Below are positions 2 through 5,208 of a stretch of 5,208 nt of DNA, piece after piece. Source of the DNA: Deltaproteobacteria bacterium. Lineage in GTDB: Bacteria; JAUYMQ01. Made by a program: the position numbers and the translations under genes. Each line of letters begins with the position of its first letter. Position 1 is the first letter of the stretch. Location: positions 1 through 5,208 of the forward strand of contig JAUYMQ010000350.1 in assembly GCA_030698575.1 (NCBI GenBank). The letters run 5' to 3'. Below the pieces are notes generated by a model. That model worked only from the letters and a program-made list of their open reading frames with translations. It was not told the origin of the DNA and did no database searches.

Positions 2-3000
2 GGGACCGCGTCGTCGACGCTGGTGCGGAACGCCCCGGGGCACATCACGAACCGGACCGATTTTCGGGGGGTGCAGACGACCTGGGCCAATCACGACGTG
101 GACGGAAGCCCGGGCACGGTGACCGAGGCGGTGGGCGAGCCCGAGCAGCGGACGACGACGTTCACGTACCACCCGGAGCTCCACACGGCGCTCTCGATCG
201 TGCGCCCCAGCGCTCTGCCCGGCGGCACGCAGAAGGTCGCGATCTTCGACTACCAGAAGCCCGCATCGGGCCCGCCGCCTGACCCGCCGCTGAACCCGCC
301 CGCGGACTTGGACCCAGCGACGTTCAACATTCCTGGGACGAACAACACAAACTTCGACCGCGTGGTGCACCGGGTGATCGAGAGTGGCTGGACACGGGAT
401 GCGGCGGGCACCCCGCTACGCGTGGCTTACGTCTCGCATTTTAGCTACGACGGCTTTGGGCGTGTGACCAGCATCGATGGGCCACGGGACAATACCGGGC
501 CGGCGGGACCCGATGTGACGACGTTTGCCTACTACGCCGACAACGCGGCGCAGGGCAACAAGCGCGGGCAGTTGCAGACGGTCACGAACGCGGCTTCGCA
601 GGTAACGGCCTTCAACGACTACGACGCCATGGGAAACGCGCTGTCGGTGACGGACCCCAACGGCCTCACGACGACCTTCACGTATGACGCGGGCAATCGG
701 GTAAGGACCATCACGCAGGTGGGGGCCGGCGTCGATGGCGGTGGGCAGCCCATCGACCTCGTGACAACGTACGTCTACGAGGCGAACGGGAACCTCGACT
801 ACATCGCGCTCCCGCGGGGCAACTTCATCAACTACCAGTTTGACGGGGCCGATCGGCTCAGCTCCATCACGCGGACGGCGACCGAGCCCACGAGCCCCTC
901 CGACACGCCGGCCGGGGAGACAATCCGGTACAGCTACGACAGCGAGGGAAACCGGACGCGCGAGGAGGTGGCGCCGGGGGTCTCCGCGCAAGAAGTCCGC
1001 TTCACCGACTTCGAGTACGACGCCCTGAACCGGCTCGAAAAGGTCTACAACCCGGTCTTCACGAGCGACCCCGTGACCGACGCCGTCTTCCGGCGATCTA
1101 CGTATGACGCCAACGGCAACCGCAAGGCCTTGGACCTGGAACAAGTCCAGGGGATGACCTCCACGACGCTCCGCCACACGGCCTTCGCCTTTGATCCCCT
1201 GAACCGGCTGAAAGACGTAACCCAGGACGACGGCTCGCCTTCGGGGGTCCTGACCGCCTACGCCTACGACGTGCAGGACAACCTTCGAACCCTCACCGAC
1301 GGCAACAACCACGACACGGACTACGGGACGGATGATTTCGGCCGCCAGGTCGAAGCGGTCTCGCCCGACACGGGGACGGCCCGGTTCGAGTACGACGAGG
1401 CCGGAAATCTGGTGGAGAAGGACCAGAACGGCCTCGTCACCGAGTACACCTACGACGCCCTGAACCGCCTGGCCCTCGTGCACTTTCCTTCTGATTCCTC
1501 GGAGGACCTTGCCTACACCTACGACACCCACGCCGACGCGCCGCCGAAGGAGAACGGCGTCGGGCGCCTCGTGCGGATCGAGGATGCCTCGGGGAAGACC
1601 TACTTCTCGTACGACAAGCGGGGAAACGTGGCCCTGGAGGAACGGCAGCAGGGCGGCGTGACGCTCACAACGAGCTACGCCTGGGACCCGAACGGGAACC
1701 TGCAGAGCCTGACCTACCCCTCGGGGCGGAAGCTCACCTACAGCTACGCCCTCGCGAACGACCAGCCCCAGACCGTGGCCATGAACCACCAGGGGCAGAA
1801 CCGGACCCTGGCCTTCGGGATTGCCTTCGAGGCCTTCGGCCCCTTGGCCTCGCTCCAGTACGGAAACGGCCTGGTGGAGACCCGGACCTACGATGTGGCA
1901 GGCCAGCTCGATGGCCTGAGTGTGGCCCCCAATACAGGCCCCGCCGTGCTCTCGCTGGACTACACCTTCGACGAGACGGGCAACATCTCCGGCATCGTCG
2001 ACACGCAGGGTTCCGAGAAGAACAAGAGCTACATCTACGATCGTCTGGACCGCCTCGACACGGCGACCGTCGGAGATCTCGGGGATTTCGACTACGACTA
2101 CGACCCCGTGGGGAACCGAACCCGGGAGGACCATGACGGGGCGGTCACGACCTATACGATCGAGGCCACGAACAACCAGATCGACACCCTCTCCGGGGCC
2201 ACCACGGCGACCTTCGGCTATGACACCCATGGCAACACGACCACGGACGGGACGCTGACTTTCGCGTACCACCCGACGCATCAGTTGAAGCAGGTCCAGG
2301 AGCCGGGCATGGCGGTGCTGGGAACCTACCAGTACGACGGCCAGTCGCGGCGGACGGCCAAGACCGTGCAGGGGCTGACGCGGCTCTTCGCCTACGACAC
2401 GGGCGCGCAGATGCTGGGCGAGTATGACGCTGCGGGGAACGTGCTGAAGGAGTACGCCTACCTGGGGACGCAGCGGCTGGTGATGGTGGACCACGACCGG
2501 GACGATGAGGGCATCCGGGACGAGGTGGACAACTGCTCGGTCGTCCAGAACCCGGACCAGGCGGACGGGGACTCGGATCTTCTGGGGGATCTGTGCGATG
2601 CGGCCCCCGGAAATCCCGACCGGGACGGGGACGGGCTTCTGGATGGGGAAGAAGATGCCGATAAGGATGGCCAGGTGAGCGCGGGAGAGACCGACCCCGA
2701 CAACCCGGACACGGATGGGGACACGTTCAGTGATGGCGTTGAGGTGGCGGCGGGGACGGACCCGCTGGACCCGAATTCCTACCCGGGCGCGCCGTCCGCG
2801 ATTCCAGCCCTCTCCGTCATGGGCGTGGTGATCTTCCTGGTTCTCTTTGCCGCGGGGCGGTTCTGGGCCCTCCGGCGGCGGTGGTCGAAGGTGGGGCGGG
2901 GCATGGATCTCATGGTGCTGGCGCTGGGCCTCACCCTCATGGCCCCGGAGGGGGTGACCCCGCAGGGCGGAGGTACGCCGGAGCGGGTGTACTACATTCA

Positions 3001-3907
3001 CACGGACCACCTCGGAACGGCGCTGAAGCTGACCGATGCCAATCAGCAGGTGGCTTGGGATGCCCGAGCCGAGGCCTTCGGAAAGACGACGGTCACGGCC
3101 ACGAACACGGTGTTCAACCTCCGCTTCCCGGGCCAGTACTATGATGCGGAGACGGGGCTGACCCACAATGGCTTCCGGACGTATTCGTCCCAGCTTGGCG
3201 CTTACCTGCAGGCCGACCCGATTGGCGACGCTCTTACAGCAGCGACCGGGGTGACGGGTCTTCACTACGGGTACGCCGATGCCTCACCCACCGGGGTGAT
3301 CGACCCCCTGGGGCTCGATGGGATTGCGCAGGGGGCATATGACTATTGGGAGGCCGTCGGGGTTGCGGGGGCAAGCCAGGGCGGGGTGCGCGGCACGGCG
3401 CAGATGGCCGCCGCCGCGTTCGCGCAGGCATCGATCGATTTCTTCCTGGCGCGGTGGATTGAATCGGAGGCTGGGCTTGCCGGCTATGCCTACGGGCAAC
3501 AGTGCTACGGGGAAGCGCTGAAGCACGGCGGCTACGCGGCGGGAGGCATTGCCCTTTCTTCGGGTGCCATCGGGTATGTCGTCCCCAAGATTCCCGGACT
3601 GTTTTCGAGAGCCGCAAGGGTGGGATCCCGCGTCGATCCTACACGGCTTAGCCATATTTTCCGCGATGCTCCAGGGCATGTGAACCCGTCGACGGTTGCG
3701 TCTCGCGAGCGGTTCCTTCGGCTATTCGAAGACGTAGCGTCGAATCCTCTAAACCGGCGTCCAGACTTCCCGCTACCGAAGGAGGCCGTGGAGGCGGGTG
3801 TTGAATCGTTCACGAAAACGTACCGAAGCGGGAAACAAATATGGGTGCTAACCCGGGATGGAAAGATCATCAACGCTGGCGTCAACCCAGGGGGTGCGAT
3901 CCGATGA
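2..3907 (+). CDS. RHS/YD-repeat polymorphic toxin protein, 5'-truncated by window edge
   Basis: RHS proteins form a hollow beta-cage of YD repeats that encloses a C-terminal toxin and are used in interbacterial antagonism through type VI or other secretion routes. The frame is open from base 2, so the true start lies upstream; the GTG at base 23 is only the first possible initiator and residues here are numbered from it (1294 residues to the TGA at 3905-3907). Order of parts: linker-like N-terminal part (1-139), about twenty YD repeats such as YDALNRL, YDANGN and YDPVGNR (~140-815), an inserted thrombospondin type-3 plus hydrophobic block (~823-988), the conserved RHS C-terminal module from HTDHLGT (993-999) through YDAETGL and DPIGD to DPLGL (1094-1098), then a variable tip of 196 residues. 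The DPxGL motif is the known end of the RHS core, where autoproteolysis releases the toxin in studied members. Family assignment is secure. The secretion route is unknown because the N-terminus is missing. Confidence 0.95.
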   Translation, partial: GTASSTLVRNAPGHITNRTDFRGVQTTWANHDVDGSPGTVTEAVGEPEQRTTTFTYHPELHTALSIVRPSALPGGTQKVAIFDYQKPASGPPPDPPLNPPADLDPATFNIPGTNNTNFDRVVHRVIESGWTRDAAGTPLRVAYVSHFSYDGFGRVTSIDGPRDNTGPAGPDVTTFAYYADNAAQGNKRGQLQTVTNAASQVTAFNDYDAMGNALSVTDPNGLTTTFTYDAGNRVRTITQVGAGVDGGGQPIDLVTTYVYEANGNLDYIALPRGNFINYQFDGADRLSSITRTATEPTSPSDTPAGETIRYSYDSEGNRTREEVAPGVSAQEVRFTDFEYDALNRLEKVYNPVFTSDPVTDAVFRRSTYDANGNRKALDLEQVQGMTSTTLRHTAFAFDPLNRLKDVTQDDGSPSGVLTAYAYDVQDNLRTLTDGNNHDTDYGTDDFGRQVEAVSPDTGTARFEYDEAGNLVEKDQNGLVTEYTYDALNRLALVHFPSDSSEDLAYTYDTHADAPPKENGVGRLVRIEDASGKTYFSYDKRGNVALEERQQGGVTLTTSYAWDPNGNLQSLTYPSGRKLTYSYALANDQPQTVAMNHQGQNRTLAFGIAFEAFGPLASLQYGNGLVETRTYDVAGQLDGLSVAPNTGPAVLSLDYTFDETGNISGIVDTQGSEKNKSYIYDRLDRLDTATVGDLGDFDYDYDPVGNRTREDHDGAVTTYTIEATNNQIDTLSGATTATFGYDTHGNTTTDGTLTFAYHPTHQLKQVQEPGMAVLGTYQYDGQSRRTAKTVQGLTRLFAYDTGAQMLGEYDAAGNVLKEYAYLGTQRLVMVDHDRDDEGIRDEVDNCSVVQNPDQADGDSDLLGDLCDAAPGNPDRDGDGLLDGEEDADKDGQVSAGETDPDNPDTDGDTFSDGVEVAAGTDPLDPNSYPGAPSAIPALSVMGVVIFLVLFAAGRFWALRRRWSKVGRGMDLMVLALGLTLMAPEGVTPQGGGTPERVYYIHTDHLGTALKLTDANQQVAWDARAEAFGKTTVTATNTVFNLRFPGQYYDAETGLTHNGFRTYSSQLGAYLQADPIGDALTAATGVTGLHYGYADASPTGVIDPLGLDGIAQGAYDYWEAVGVAGASQGGVRGTAQMAAAAFAQASIDFFLARWIESEAGLAGYAYGQQCYGEALKHGGYAAGGIALSSGAIGYVVPKIPGLFSRAARVGSRVDPTRLSHIFRDAPGHVNPSTVASRERFLRLFEDVASNPLNRRPDFPLPKEAVEAGVESFTKTYRSGKQIWVLTRDGKIINAGVNPGGAIR
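440..2479 (+). repeat. Tandem YD (RHS) repeats within the RHS gene
   Basis: This part of the RHS gene encodes roughly twenty degenerate units of the form [YF]xYDxxGNLxxxxD. Examples are FSYDGFGR (starts at residue 140), FTYDAGNRV, YSYDSEGNR, FEYDALNRL, STYDANGNR, FAFDPLNRL, YTYDALNRL, FSYDKRGNV, YAWDPNGNL, YTFDETGNI, YIYDRLDRL, YDYDPVGNR and YQYDGQSRR. The repeats have diverged at DNA level. The closest nucleotide match I see is the YDALNRL unit at 1017-1036 against 1451-1470, which differs at one of 20 bases. In the family these strands spiral into the cage that shields the toxin. Spacing varies and some units are decayed (YGTDDFGRQ, YTIEATNNQ). Confidence 0.92.
2489..2782 (+). other. Thrombospondin type-3 (Ca-binding) repeat insert in the RHS core
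   Basis: Residues 823-920 of the RHS protein are Asp/Gly-rich and match thrombospondin type-3 repeats. There is a DxDxDxGIxD start (823-833), DNC (836-838), NPDQADGDSD (843-852) and GDLCD (855-859), then DRDGDGLLDGEED (866-878), DADKDGQ (878-884) and DTDGDTFSDG (896-905), ending in the common exit TDPLDPNSYP. The two cysteines C838 and C858 are spaced as in the family's usual disulfide. Such repeats bind several calcium ions and rigidify extracellular linkers. In ordinary RHS proteins the strand ending YLGTQRLVMV runs almost directly into the YYIHTDHLGT strand, so this block interrupts the core. Calcium binding and an extracytoplasmic location are inferred from the family. Confidence 0.85.
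2801..2944 (+). other. IPTL-like hydrophobic segment, Arg cluster and second hydrophobic segment
   Basis: Residues 927-953 begin with IPALS, continue through about 19 largely hydrophobic residues and end in ALRRR, the layout of IPTL-CTERM-type sorting tails (IPTLSEWG-like motif, membrane helix, basic cluster). Those tails normally sit at the extreme C-terminus after Asp-rich or thrombospondin type-3 regions, but here more than 340 residues follow. After a basic loop (RRRWSK, 951-956) comes a second, shorter hydrophobic run (961-974, MDLMVLALGLTLMA). By the positive-inside rule the two could form a hairpin with the arginine loop in the cytoplasm and both flanks outside. The resemblance is read by eye; the topology and any processing are inference. 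Confidence 0.6.
3302..3904 (+). other. Variable C-terminal toxin tip of the RHS protein (putative nuclease)
   Basis: This is the part of the RHS protein after DPLGL, where polymorphic toxin domains sit. Residues ~1100-1200 are Ala/Gly-rich with hydrophobic stretches (for example 1169-1187) and resemble a pre-toxin or translocation segment. The compact end (1211-1294) contains HIFRDAPGHVN (1211-1221), an acidic/aromatic helix with RFLRLFEDVA, the FTKTY strand (1263-1267), QIWVLTRDGKI (1272-1282) and NAGVNPGG (1284-1291). Paired histidines followed by Thr/Ser, Trp and Asn-bearing strands recall small RNases of the Barnase-EndoU-ColicinE5/D-RelE type, and I recall similar tails on other RHS and contact-dependent toxins. 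H1211, H1219, T1264 or T1266, W1274, R1278 and N1288 are the candidate active residues. Toxin role is likely from position; the nuclease class is tentative. Confidence 0.65.
3889..3894 (+). promoter_or_regulatory. Ribosome binding site for the putative immunity gene
   Basis: AGGGGG lies 9 bases before the ATG at 3904 and inside the last codons of the RHS gene. Together with the ATGA stop/start overlap it favours 3904 over the in-frame ATG at 3841, which lies deep inside the toxin coding region and would add 21 residues. It implies coupled translation of toxin and partner. Confidence 0.7.
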
Positions 3908-4422
3908 GCGCATTGGCGAACGCCCTGGCACTCGATACAGCGCAAGACCTCCCTGCTGCAGCTCGGGAATACGAGCGGGCGGTCAGGGACGTAGGGGCGA
4001 CATTGGAAACGTATTTGAATCTGGCGGTTCTCTATTTCGTACTCGTGGATCCTGGGGAGGCCAGCACGCGAGGATTGTCCGCTGACTTCGTGAATGCGGC
4101 ATGGCGACGAGCAACTGAGCTGCTCGAAGAAGCTTCTGACCGTTTTGGTTCGAACTCCGAGATCGAGTTCTGGAAGAGATACTTCCGCTTCGTTGTTGTC
4201 GGGGATGCGTTTCTTCCAGAGGAGTGCGAAGAGCTTGCAAAAAGTGGAGGCTCGCTCGTCCCTTACTTCTTCCTTTCTTCCGCTTGTGATGATAACCGAT
4301 ATTGTGAGCAGACGGAGGTACTTCGCGAACAAGTCCGTGCCCGCGAGACGGCTAGACAGCGATACGTTTATGATATGCTGCAAAAGGCGCGAGGTCGATC
4401 TCGCCAGAGGTCGAAGTCATGA
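3904..4422 (+). CDS. Putative immunity protein for the RHS toxin (172 aa, helical, TPR-like)
   Basis: A 172-residue protein whose ATG overlaps the RHS stop codon (ATGA), with a good Shine-Dalgarno sequence 9 bases upstream. In polymorphic toxin loci the gene directly after the toxin tip nearly always encodes the immunity protein that binds and blocks that tip in the producer. The sequence has no signal peptide and looks entirely alpha-helical. The N-terminal part (AAAREYERAV, residues 18-27, then a TYLNLAVLYF helix, 36-45) has the spacing of a tetratricopeptide-like helix pair. A second pair surrounds AAWRRATELLEEASDRF (65-81) and EFWKRYFRF (88-96). The last 30 residues are strongly basic. 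It is acidic before that tail (for example EECEEL, 106-111), which would suit binding a basic nuclease. I do not recognise a named family. G+C is about 51% in 4141-4380, well below the RHS core. Function is inferred from position. Confidence 0.75.
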   Translation: MSALANALALDTAQDLPAAAREYERAVRDVGATLETYLNLAVLYFVLVDPGEASTRGLSADFVNAAWRRATELLEEASDRFGSNSEIEFWKRYFRFVVVGDAFLPEECEELAKSGGSLVPYFFLSSACDDNRYCEQTEVLREQVRARETARQRYVYDMLQKARGRSRQRSKS

Positions 4423-4704: not shown

Positions 4705-5208
4705 TCAGGCCGCGCGCCCGTACCGGTGATGAAGGCCGCCCACCTGGGGGATGGCGATGACGCGTCCCCGGGACGGCGGCTCTATGTTCCTGGGAACGGG
4801 GGCGTTCCTCTGGAGCGAGATGTGAGGGCGCGCCCGATCGTAATAATGGAGGTAGCTCTTGAGAACCCTGCGAAGGTGATTCTCGCCGAACACGATGACG
4901 TGGTCCAGACACTCCCGCCGGATGGAACCGATCACCCTTTCCACGAATGGATTTTGCCAGGGCGACTTCCGGCTCGTGATGATCTCCCGAATGCCCATGT
5001 TCTGGAGCCGTCGGCGGAACCAATCCCCGTAGATACCGTCCCGATCCCGAACGAGGAACCTGGGGATCGGCTCATCGTCTGGGAACGCCTCGACCATCTG
5101 CTGGGCTGTCCACTCGGCCGTGGGATGCTCGGTCACGTTGAAGTGCACGATGCGTCGGCGGTCGTGGGAAAGGACGAGGAAGCAATACAGGACGCGAAAC
5201 GTGGCCGT
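4705..5208 (-). CDS. DDE transposase, integrase core domain (C-terminal part, cut by window edge)
   Basis: The last 167 residues of a transposase whose reading frame enters from the right edge; a GTG at 5146-5148 is internal, because the frame continues open upstream of it (visible beginning TATFRVLYCFLVLSHDRRR). The fold is the retroviral-integrase-like rve domain. Counting from the edge, VRDRDGIYG supplies the second catalytic Asp (about residue 55) and SPWQNPFVERVIGSIRREC the catalytic Glu (about residue 90), giving D-x34-E spacing. The first Asp should lie just off the window. The tail YLHYYDRARPHISLQRNAP followed by a GGLHHRYGRAA end is typical of IS481/IS3-like integrase-core proteins abundant in Acidobacteria, Deltaproteobacteria and metagenomes. 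The C-terminus appears complete and no frameshift is seen in the visible part. It would cut and join element ends. The exact insertion-sequence family is not assigned. Confidence 0.9.
   Translation of the reverse strand, partial: TATFRVLYCFLVLSHDRRRIVHFNVTEHPTAEWTAQQMVEAFPDDEPIPRFLVRDRDGIYGDWFRRRLQNMGIREIITSRKSPWQNPFVERVIGSIRRECLDHVIVFGENHLRRVLKSYLHYYDRARPHISLQRNAPVPRNIEPPSRGRVIAIPQVGGLHHRYGRAA
4705..5208 (-). mobile_element. Partial insertion sequence carrying the integrase-core transposase
   Basis: The transposase implies an insertion sequence whose 3' end lies between the stop codon and the immunity gene (somewhere in 4423-4704) and whose 5' end is beyond the window. Only the gene-bearing part is given here. 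I could not identify a terminal inverted repeat or target duplication, because the partner end is not visible. Confidence 0.6.

Follow-up and report, generated by a model that had tools for sequence, protein, structure and literature searches.

What is a segment that looks like the end of one surface protein and the beginning of another doing in the middle of an RHS polymorphic toxin? The question is raised by a 5,208-nucleotide (nt) stretch of DNA from a Deltaproteobacteria bacterium (hereafter the window; assembly GCA_030698575.1, contig JAUYMQ010000350.1), in which an open reading frame (ORF) for an RHS protein reads uninterrupted through an inserted block. Our analysis suggests that the middle of this protein carries the tag that closes a surface protein followed by the start signal of the next one, and that the cell may cut the product in two, leaving the cage anchored and exporting the lid with the toxin as a chain of its own. 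Profile searches identify the protein as RHS (RHS_repeat, E 9.5e-48; RHS, E 2.2e-12), its RHS repeats and core score above the family cut-offs (PF05593, 160 bits; PF03527, 47.1; TIGR03696 (Rhs_assc_core), 57.9), and it aligns to the RHS structures 8h8a, 7q97, and 8cp6 in a PDB comparison. The aspartyl-protease motif that precedes the variable C-terminus is present as DPIG-x25-DPLG (nt 3215-3313).

The two halves of the inserted block

Between the strands YLGTQRLVMV (residues 820-829) and YYIHTDHLGT (from residue 997) lie 167 residues (830-996, nt 2489-2989), whereas ordinary RHS proteins hold both strands close together, e.g., YIWLDGTPLAFVQSGQT/YHVHVDHLGT, where the slash marks the junction. 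The preliminary description, made from the letters of the window, had rightly placed an insert between these nearly adjacent strands, but counted 166 residues in a numbering shifted by 7. The block opens with acidic thrombospondin type-3 (TSP3) repeats and continues with the motif IPALSVMG and a strong transmembrane helix. RRR with a basic loop then leads to a weaker hydrophobic run, which is followed by the glycine-rich QGGGTPERV. The TSP3 repeats described earlier are recognized by PF18884 TSP3_bac (34.4 bits, cut-off 25), whereas PF02412 stays under its cut-off (19.4 bits against 25). The first hydrophobic segment (residues 933-949) is the most hydrophobic of the whole protein, with a KD17 of 2.68 that is equalled in 1 of 1000 shuffles of the protein, and R958-R960 with the basic loop sit between the two hydrophobic segments, so that the membrane-type helix and the arginine loop of the preliminary description were both recovered.

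The first half of the block has close counterparts in the same genome. At least nine non-RHS ORFs end in [IVL]P[AT]L..G, a helix, and RRR within the last 25-44 residues, the set including variants such as APAMGPLG, and several of these tails follow a TSP3 linker of the GTDPxDP kind, as in the window. A tail profile built solely from nine non-RHS C-terminal tails was searched against 7354 ORF segments of the retrieved loci. At sequence E values of about 0.02 or less, its matches stop 0-7 residues short of the C-terminus, RHS proteins excepted; internal matches occur in RHS proteins only, i.e., in the copies C151 (E 4.3e-6) and C121 (0.007) and in the window (0.015), where they are followed by another 127, 293, and 341 residues, respectively. 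The genome encodes one XrtH exosortase (C634, 110.8 bits vs a cut-off of 86), in which NGC, Arg, and His follow one another in what we take, judging by eye, to be the order expected of an exosortase active site. The first half of the block is very probably a sorting signal.

These observations also bear on the toxin-entry role that the preliminary description had proposed, i.e., a hairpin that inserts into the target membrane and helps the toxin to cross it. All that speaks for it is that the block is hydrophobic and near the toxin. Its signature, TSP3 linker, and RRR recur in the tails of the surface proteins that the cell itself makes, and the translocation helices proposed for the Rhs effectors of type VI secretion are located in N-terminal fragments (PMC10684867), not at the site of the block. 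The idea found no support and we regard it as highly improbable.

The second half of the block is best read from the paralogues. The genome contains seven RHS cores, and the hairpin was found in six of them: C613 (the window), C121, C233, C151, C127, and C555, i.e., in all RHS genes with an intact upstream part. Please note that the hairpins of C127 and C555 are visible in part only, where their contigs start; the seventh core, C178, is a truncated cassette that retains just the tail of the block, TQGSGPTERVLYIHTDHLGT. The second runs of the paralogues have a basic start, a hydrophobic core, and an end of small residues right before the RHS strand. With the slash now marking putative cleavage points, which are a manual reading by the -3,-1 rule and not predictor output, the second run is GRLTRLGAVALLIGAHLFQVGSAQA/ATLTYLHADQLGS in C233 (end GSAQA/A), DRAARLYLALFVWLALQVQLSREAFA/ALGEYIHPDHLGS in C151 and C127 (REAFA/A), and DRAARTTLVLFLVVAHIHQAQRALA/STVTYLNEDHLGS in C555 (RALA/S); the end is weaker in C121 (VVPGTVTS/QGGG). 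C121 is a full-length copy of 1811 residues with an N-terminal Sec signal peptide (MLARLAAAVLLFAGALFCLPGQDAAAQ); it is also matched, below threshold, by DUF6531, which in RHS shells is the N-terminal plug (PMC10684867).

Tandem, frameshifted, or truncated RHS C-terminal cassettes were observed at C151 (loci L004/L118; a frameshift and a truncated repeat) and C178 (L019), a pattern consistent with possible cassette recombination. Such recombination, or an assembly error, could also have fused the C-terminal tail of one gene to the N-terminal signal of the next by accident, with a product that does not function; the block does look exactly like one protein's end plus another's start, RHS cassettes do recombine, and these two broken loci belong to the same genome. 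An accident of this kind is nevertheless quite unlikely, as it has to account for six divergent in-frame copies in one genome, with hairpin identities to the window of 19-58%, and for the further examples in Binatota and Myxococcota given below.

The same site in other genomes and in known systems

The window genome is the sole member of its order and phylum in the compared genome collection, and most RHS genes lie outside the sample. The phylum names given for other genomes follow the record titles of the loci taken as centers rather than a formal classification. Elsewhere, 55 RHS cores had 60 or more residues upstream, and in 45 of them no hydrophobic segment was found before HTDHLGT; this sample is not random, because some of its loci were picked by a hairpin profile. 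The preliminary description had asked whether most RHS homologues carry the block; all intact RHS genes of this genome do, whereas those 45 cores elsewhere do not. Among 30 loci chosen by core score alone, in the phylum of a Myxococcota-like metagenome-assembled genome (MAG), one hairpin was found (G1025, Myxococcota), in frame within a 2493-residue ORF and ending in ...VALIVACVVSARALRRRVGWAKLGTTWVALALVVQFVAPASVAQA/ALAVGP (SVAQA/A). In G1040 (Binatota), a genome that shares its phylum with a Binatia MAG, three RHS genes lie in tandem, each with an in-frame hairpin at the block site, and the hairpin ends, RLQA/Q or VRA/Q, are signal-peptidase-like.

At other loci, the two parts come as separate genes. 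On the minus strand of IMGVR_UViG_2681813037 (L222, nt about 5691-8327), an RHS gene is split at the block site: the first ORF holds IIYLGEQLVAEVEQ and about 100 more residues and then ends, and the second starts within about 20 nt and holds MIRNLLLVILFNILAVLNVNA/TVVYLHTDQLGS, a signal peptide immediately ahead of YLHTDQLGS. In this locus, the core appears to run on in a further, overlapping frame. In the Acidobacteriota G294 (L183-L186) and G123 (L187-L189), ORFs consisting of a signal peptide, an RHS core, and a variable C-terminus stand alone, and no upstream RHS cage was present within the fetched stretches.

These loci help to weigh an uncut membrane hairpin, in which both runs would remain in the inner membrane and anchor the cage permanently, with both halves periplasmic and no proteolysis. 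A positive loop between two hydrophobic runs fits such an arrangement, the window copy has no clear signal-peptidase site, and a Leptospira-like RHS (L221) carries a different two-helix insert at the same site. We consider it unlikely, if not negligibly so, given that the first helix bears this genome's C-terminal sorting signature alongside XrtH, that A-x-A-like sites close the second runs both in the paralogues and in other lineages, and that a gene naturally split at the site exists (L222). The Leptospira-like RHS ORFs (3-1538 and 2144-5494 of L221) have an insert that ends in a lipobox-like FTNINCG and a GGGSSGGGGAS linker; being a different hairpin, it was not counted as a homologue. That insertions are tolerated here is also seen in Bacteroidota-like RHS proteins (L264-L266), in which the junction is occupied by a soluble insert of roughly 90 residues that contains FCC[DN]D.

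Further scans were less productive. A profile of the TSP3-rich block retrieved 80 loci from genome contigs, none with an RHS core by a motif script; the scans of viral contigs gave few RHS; the hairpin profile A4, run over 396 genomes in the phylum of G043 (Acidobacteriota), yielded no RHS hairpin of the IPxL type among the fetched loci, which were solely stand-alone ORFs of signal peptide plus core; and NF033207, run over 398 Pseudomonadota genomes, scored above its cut-off in one genome, with no RHS hairpin among the inspected loci.

Among database models, NF033207, "midcut-by-XrtH", comes closest to the block, which it resembles in layout. Common to both are an internal XrtH-type signal (IP.., a transmembrane helix, and basic residues) and a second signal-like segment that is followed by an exported domain, and XrtH is also encoded in the window genome. 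The family matches the window hairpin over profile positions 31-82 (E 3.3e-6); within this genome the window gene is its best match, with three other RHS copies in the top five. A true member from Pseudomonadota (L191) has a signal peptide, a short stretch, AIPVDHPG-helix-RGVQKGR, a second signal ending in RVQAQ (VQA/Q), and exported repeats; it differs from the window in its short N-terminal part, its other C-terminal domain, and the lack of an RHS cage. On these sequence likenesses the block appears to work like a midcut module, and the protein is not classed as an NF033207 member. In two non-RHS proteins, L138 (G031) and L145 (G007), around position 1501, an internal sorting-tail-like helix with RRR is followed by a second signal peptide (STRA/EET and MASA/QP) and then by a stretch that may be an outer-membrane barrel, which suggests that such a module could be more general than XrtH or RHS.

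The [IV]P[AT]L..G, helix, and RRR signature is shared with the IPTL-CTERM/exosortase H system (TIGR04174, TIGR04177), for which this genome has both XrtH and true C-terminal tails; there the signal is C-terminal, whereas that of the window is internal. MYXO-CTERM tails of the myxosortase system (PMC11980579) have the same tripartite build of signature, transmembrane helix, and Arg-rich tail, but they are C-terminal, serve a different enzyme, and use a Cys signature, of which versions are found inside the Binatota RHS proteins. With the RHS toxins Tse5, RhsA, Rhs1, and relatives the window protein shares the YD repeats, the Rhs_assc_core, the DPIG/DPLG plug motif, and the variable C-terminus, with a spacing of x25 in the window vs DPXG-x19-DPXG in the aspartyl protease of Tse5 (PMC10684867). 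Ordinary RHS proteins, however, have no such insert between the strands, where the window protein has a sorting module, ahead of its plug and its final shell strands; and Tse5, RhsA, and Rhs1 are cargo of type VI secretion, whereas the group of the window appears to be Sec-exported, judging by the signal peptide of C121. Bacterial teneurin-like RHS proteins (PMC13018210) are likewise large RHS/YD shells, for which Sec export and anchoring at the surface are predicted; unlike in the window, no internal sorting signal is mentioned in the available part of that article. A literature search for exosortase or internal signals together with RHS found none in titles or abstracts, and Zhang et al. 2012 (PMC3482391) do not mention exosortase or sortase.

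Layout of the window

The features of the window are collected in Table 1. The 197-residue C-terminal tail and the adjacent 172-residue ORF gave no significant match in family searches. The integrase core, just downstream of the toxin gene, runs off the contig end and is probably part of an insertion sequence.

Table 1 Coordinates of the RHS gene, its inserted block, and the neighboring genes in the window
Feature	Position (nt)	Strand	Basis or remark
RHS polymorphic-toxin ORF	2..3907	+	1301 residues; 5' end beyond contig; RHS family matches
Last RHS strand ahead of the block, YLGTQRLVMV (residues 820-829)	2459..2488	+	Sequence
TSP3 calcium-rod-like linker (residues 830-925)	2489..2776	+	PF18884 TSP3_bac, 34.4 bits; PDB match to thrombospondin-2
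Sorting signature IPALSVMG (residues 934-941), [IV]P[AT]L[SG]xxG	2801..2824	+	C-terminal motif of non-RHS proteins of this genome
Transmembrane helix 1 of probable sorting signal (residues 938-957)	2813..2872	+	KD17 2.68; 1/1000 shuffles
Basic loop RRRWSKVGRGMD (residues 958-969), presumably cytoplasmic	2873..2908	+	RRR invariant in six aligned RHS copies
Second hydrophobic run, internal signal-peptide-like (residues 970-990)	2909..2971	+	Paralogues end in AQA/, AFA/, ALA/; window copy without canonical A-x-A
Resumed RHS strand YYIHTDHLGT (residues 997-1006)	2990..3019	+	Sequence
Rhs_assc_core / C-terminal plug region	3071..3316	+	Aspartyl-protease motif DPIG (3215-3226), DPLG (3302-3313), cf. 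PMC10684867
Variable C-terminal region, presumed toxin	3314..3907	+	No family match
Candidate immunity protein, ORF directly downstream (172 residues)	3904..4422	+	Position only; overlaps RHS stop by 4 nt
Integrase core	4705-5208	-	rve_3, E 5.3e-15

Proposed processing and its meaning

We consider it somewhat probable that the block is a midcut module, i.e., an exosortase-type tail, complete with TSP3 linker, IPALxxxG, transmembrane helix, and RRR, joined in frame to a second signal peptide, and that the protein is processed as follows. The RHS protein would be exported by Sec; the tail helix would stop the transfer and leave RRR in the cytoplasm, and the second signal would restart it, so that the final shell strands would enter the periplasm too, together with the C-terminal plug and the toxin. 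XrtH would cut at IPAL and attach the shell to a surface lipid anchor, sortase-like systems being thought to leave the cut protein on a surface anchor (PMC11980579), and signal peptidase would remove the second signal and free the plug-plus-toxin chain. The products would be an anchored RHS shell and a separate plug-toxin chain, either held without a covalent link or released. What follows the block in the window protein aligns to the end of the Tse5 shell, i.e., its final ~106 residues (8cp6 chain B, 1016-1121 of 1121). As the C-terminal plug of Tse5 comprises residues 1092-1168 (PMC10684867), chain length would place the block immediately ahead of the final shell strands and of the plug. Tse5 itself consists of three fragments kept together by protein-protein contacts (PMC10684867), and a cut RHS protein can therefore remain assembled.

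The sequences directly support this proposal in the anatomy of the block, its likeness to the C-terminal tails of the same genome, the presence of XrtH, the Sec signal of C121, the return of such hairpins at this site in other lineages, and the naturally split gene. Several points weigh against it. The second hydrophobic segment of the window (residues 970-986) has a KD17 of 1.62, which 447 of 1000 shuffles equal, and so by itself it is not beyond chance; the run that the preliminary description had seen is there, and its reality rests on the homologues. This run, LMVLALGLTLMAPEGVTPQGGG (LTLMAPEGVTPQGGG), contains no canonical signal-peptidase I or A-x-A site. For the window gene, this is where the case is weakest; in addition, the ORF lacks its own N-terminus at the contig edge. 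A structure prediction of residues 558-1107 from a 3-sequence alignment, with a predicted local distance difference test (pLDDT) of 41 and a predicted template modeling score (pTM) of 0.26, cannot place the hydrophobic runs. The NF033207 match of 27.3 bits is below the 45-bit cut-off for membership, and TIGR04174 (cut-off 20.5 bits) did not report the window block at E<=10. The Binatota hairpins have a pre-helix signature of Cys type (SGSCGT, SGMCST) instead of IPxL, so if the model holds generally, those hairpins must be cut by another protease. Finally, the topology, both cuts, the anchor, and the re-association are inferred from sequence, as is the whole case.

The preliminary description had offered an envelope anchor or display tether as well as toxin entry, and the anchor or tether comes closest of its three ideas; given the signal-peptide-like behavior of the second run, however, cutting is a likelier outcome than permanent anchoring. 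It had missed that the first half is an exosortase-type tag, that XrtH is encoded in the genome, and that the second run is like an internal signal peptide. Tentatively, and as a possibility rather than an expectation, we further propose that a natural breakpoint recurs in RHS toxins, ahead of the plug and the final shell strands. Different lineages would there make two separately sorted chains, the routes being an internal sortase tag plus a second signal peptide, or two genes, and the shell would turn into a lipid-anchored holder at the surface for a lid-toxin that is exported separately and can be exchanged.

For RHS toxins outside type VI secretion, the route to the surface and the release of the toxin are poorly known. 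If the proposed processing is true, an exosortase-anchored shell with a separate toxin-bearing lid would be a direct and testable delivery route, and the stand-alone "core plus toxin" genes with signal peptides would be explained. An exosortase signal would then lie inside a cage protein, and a sorting tail followed by a restart signal would be a reusable device for cutting one polypeptide into two surface proteins, perhaps a general bacterial way of doing so (cf. L138 and L145).
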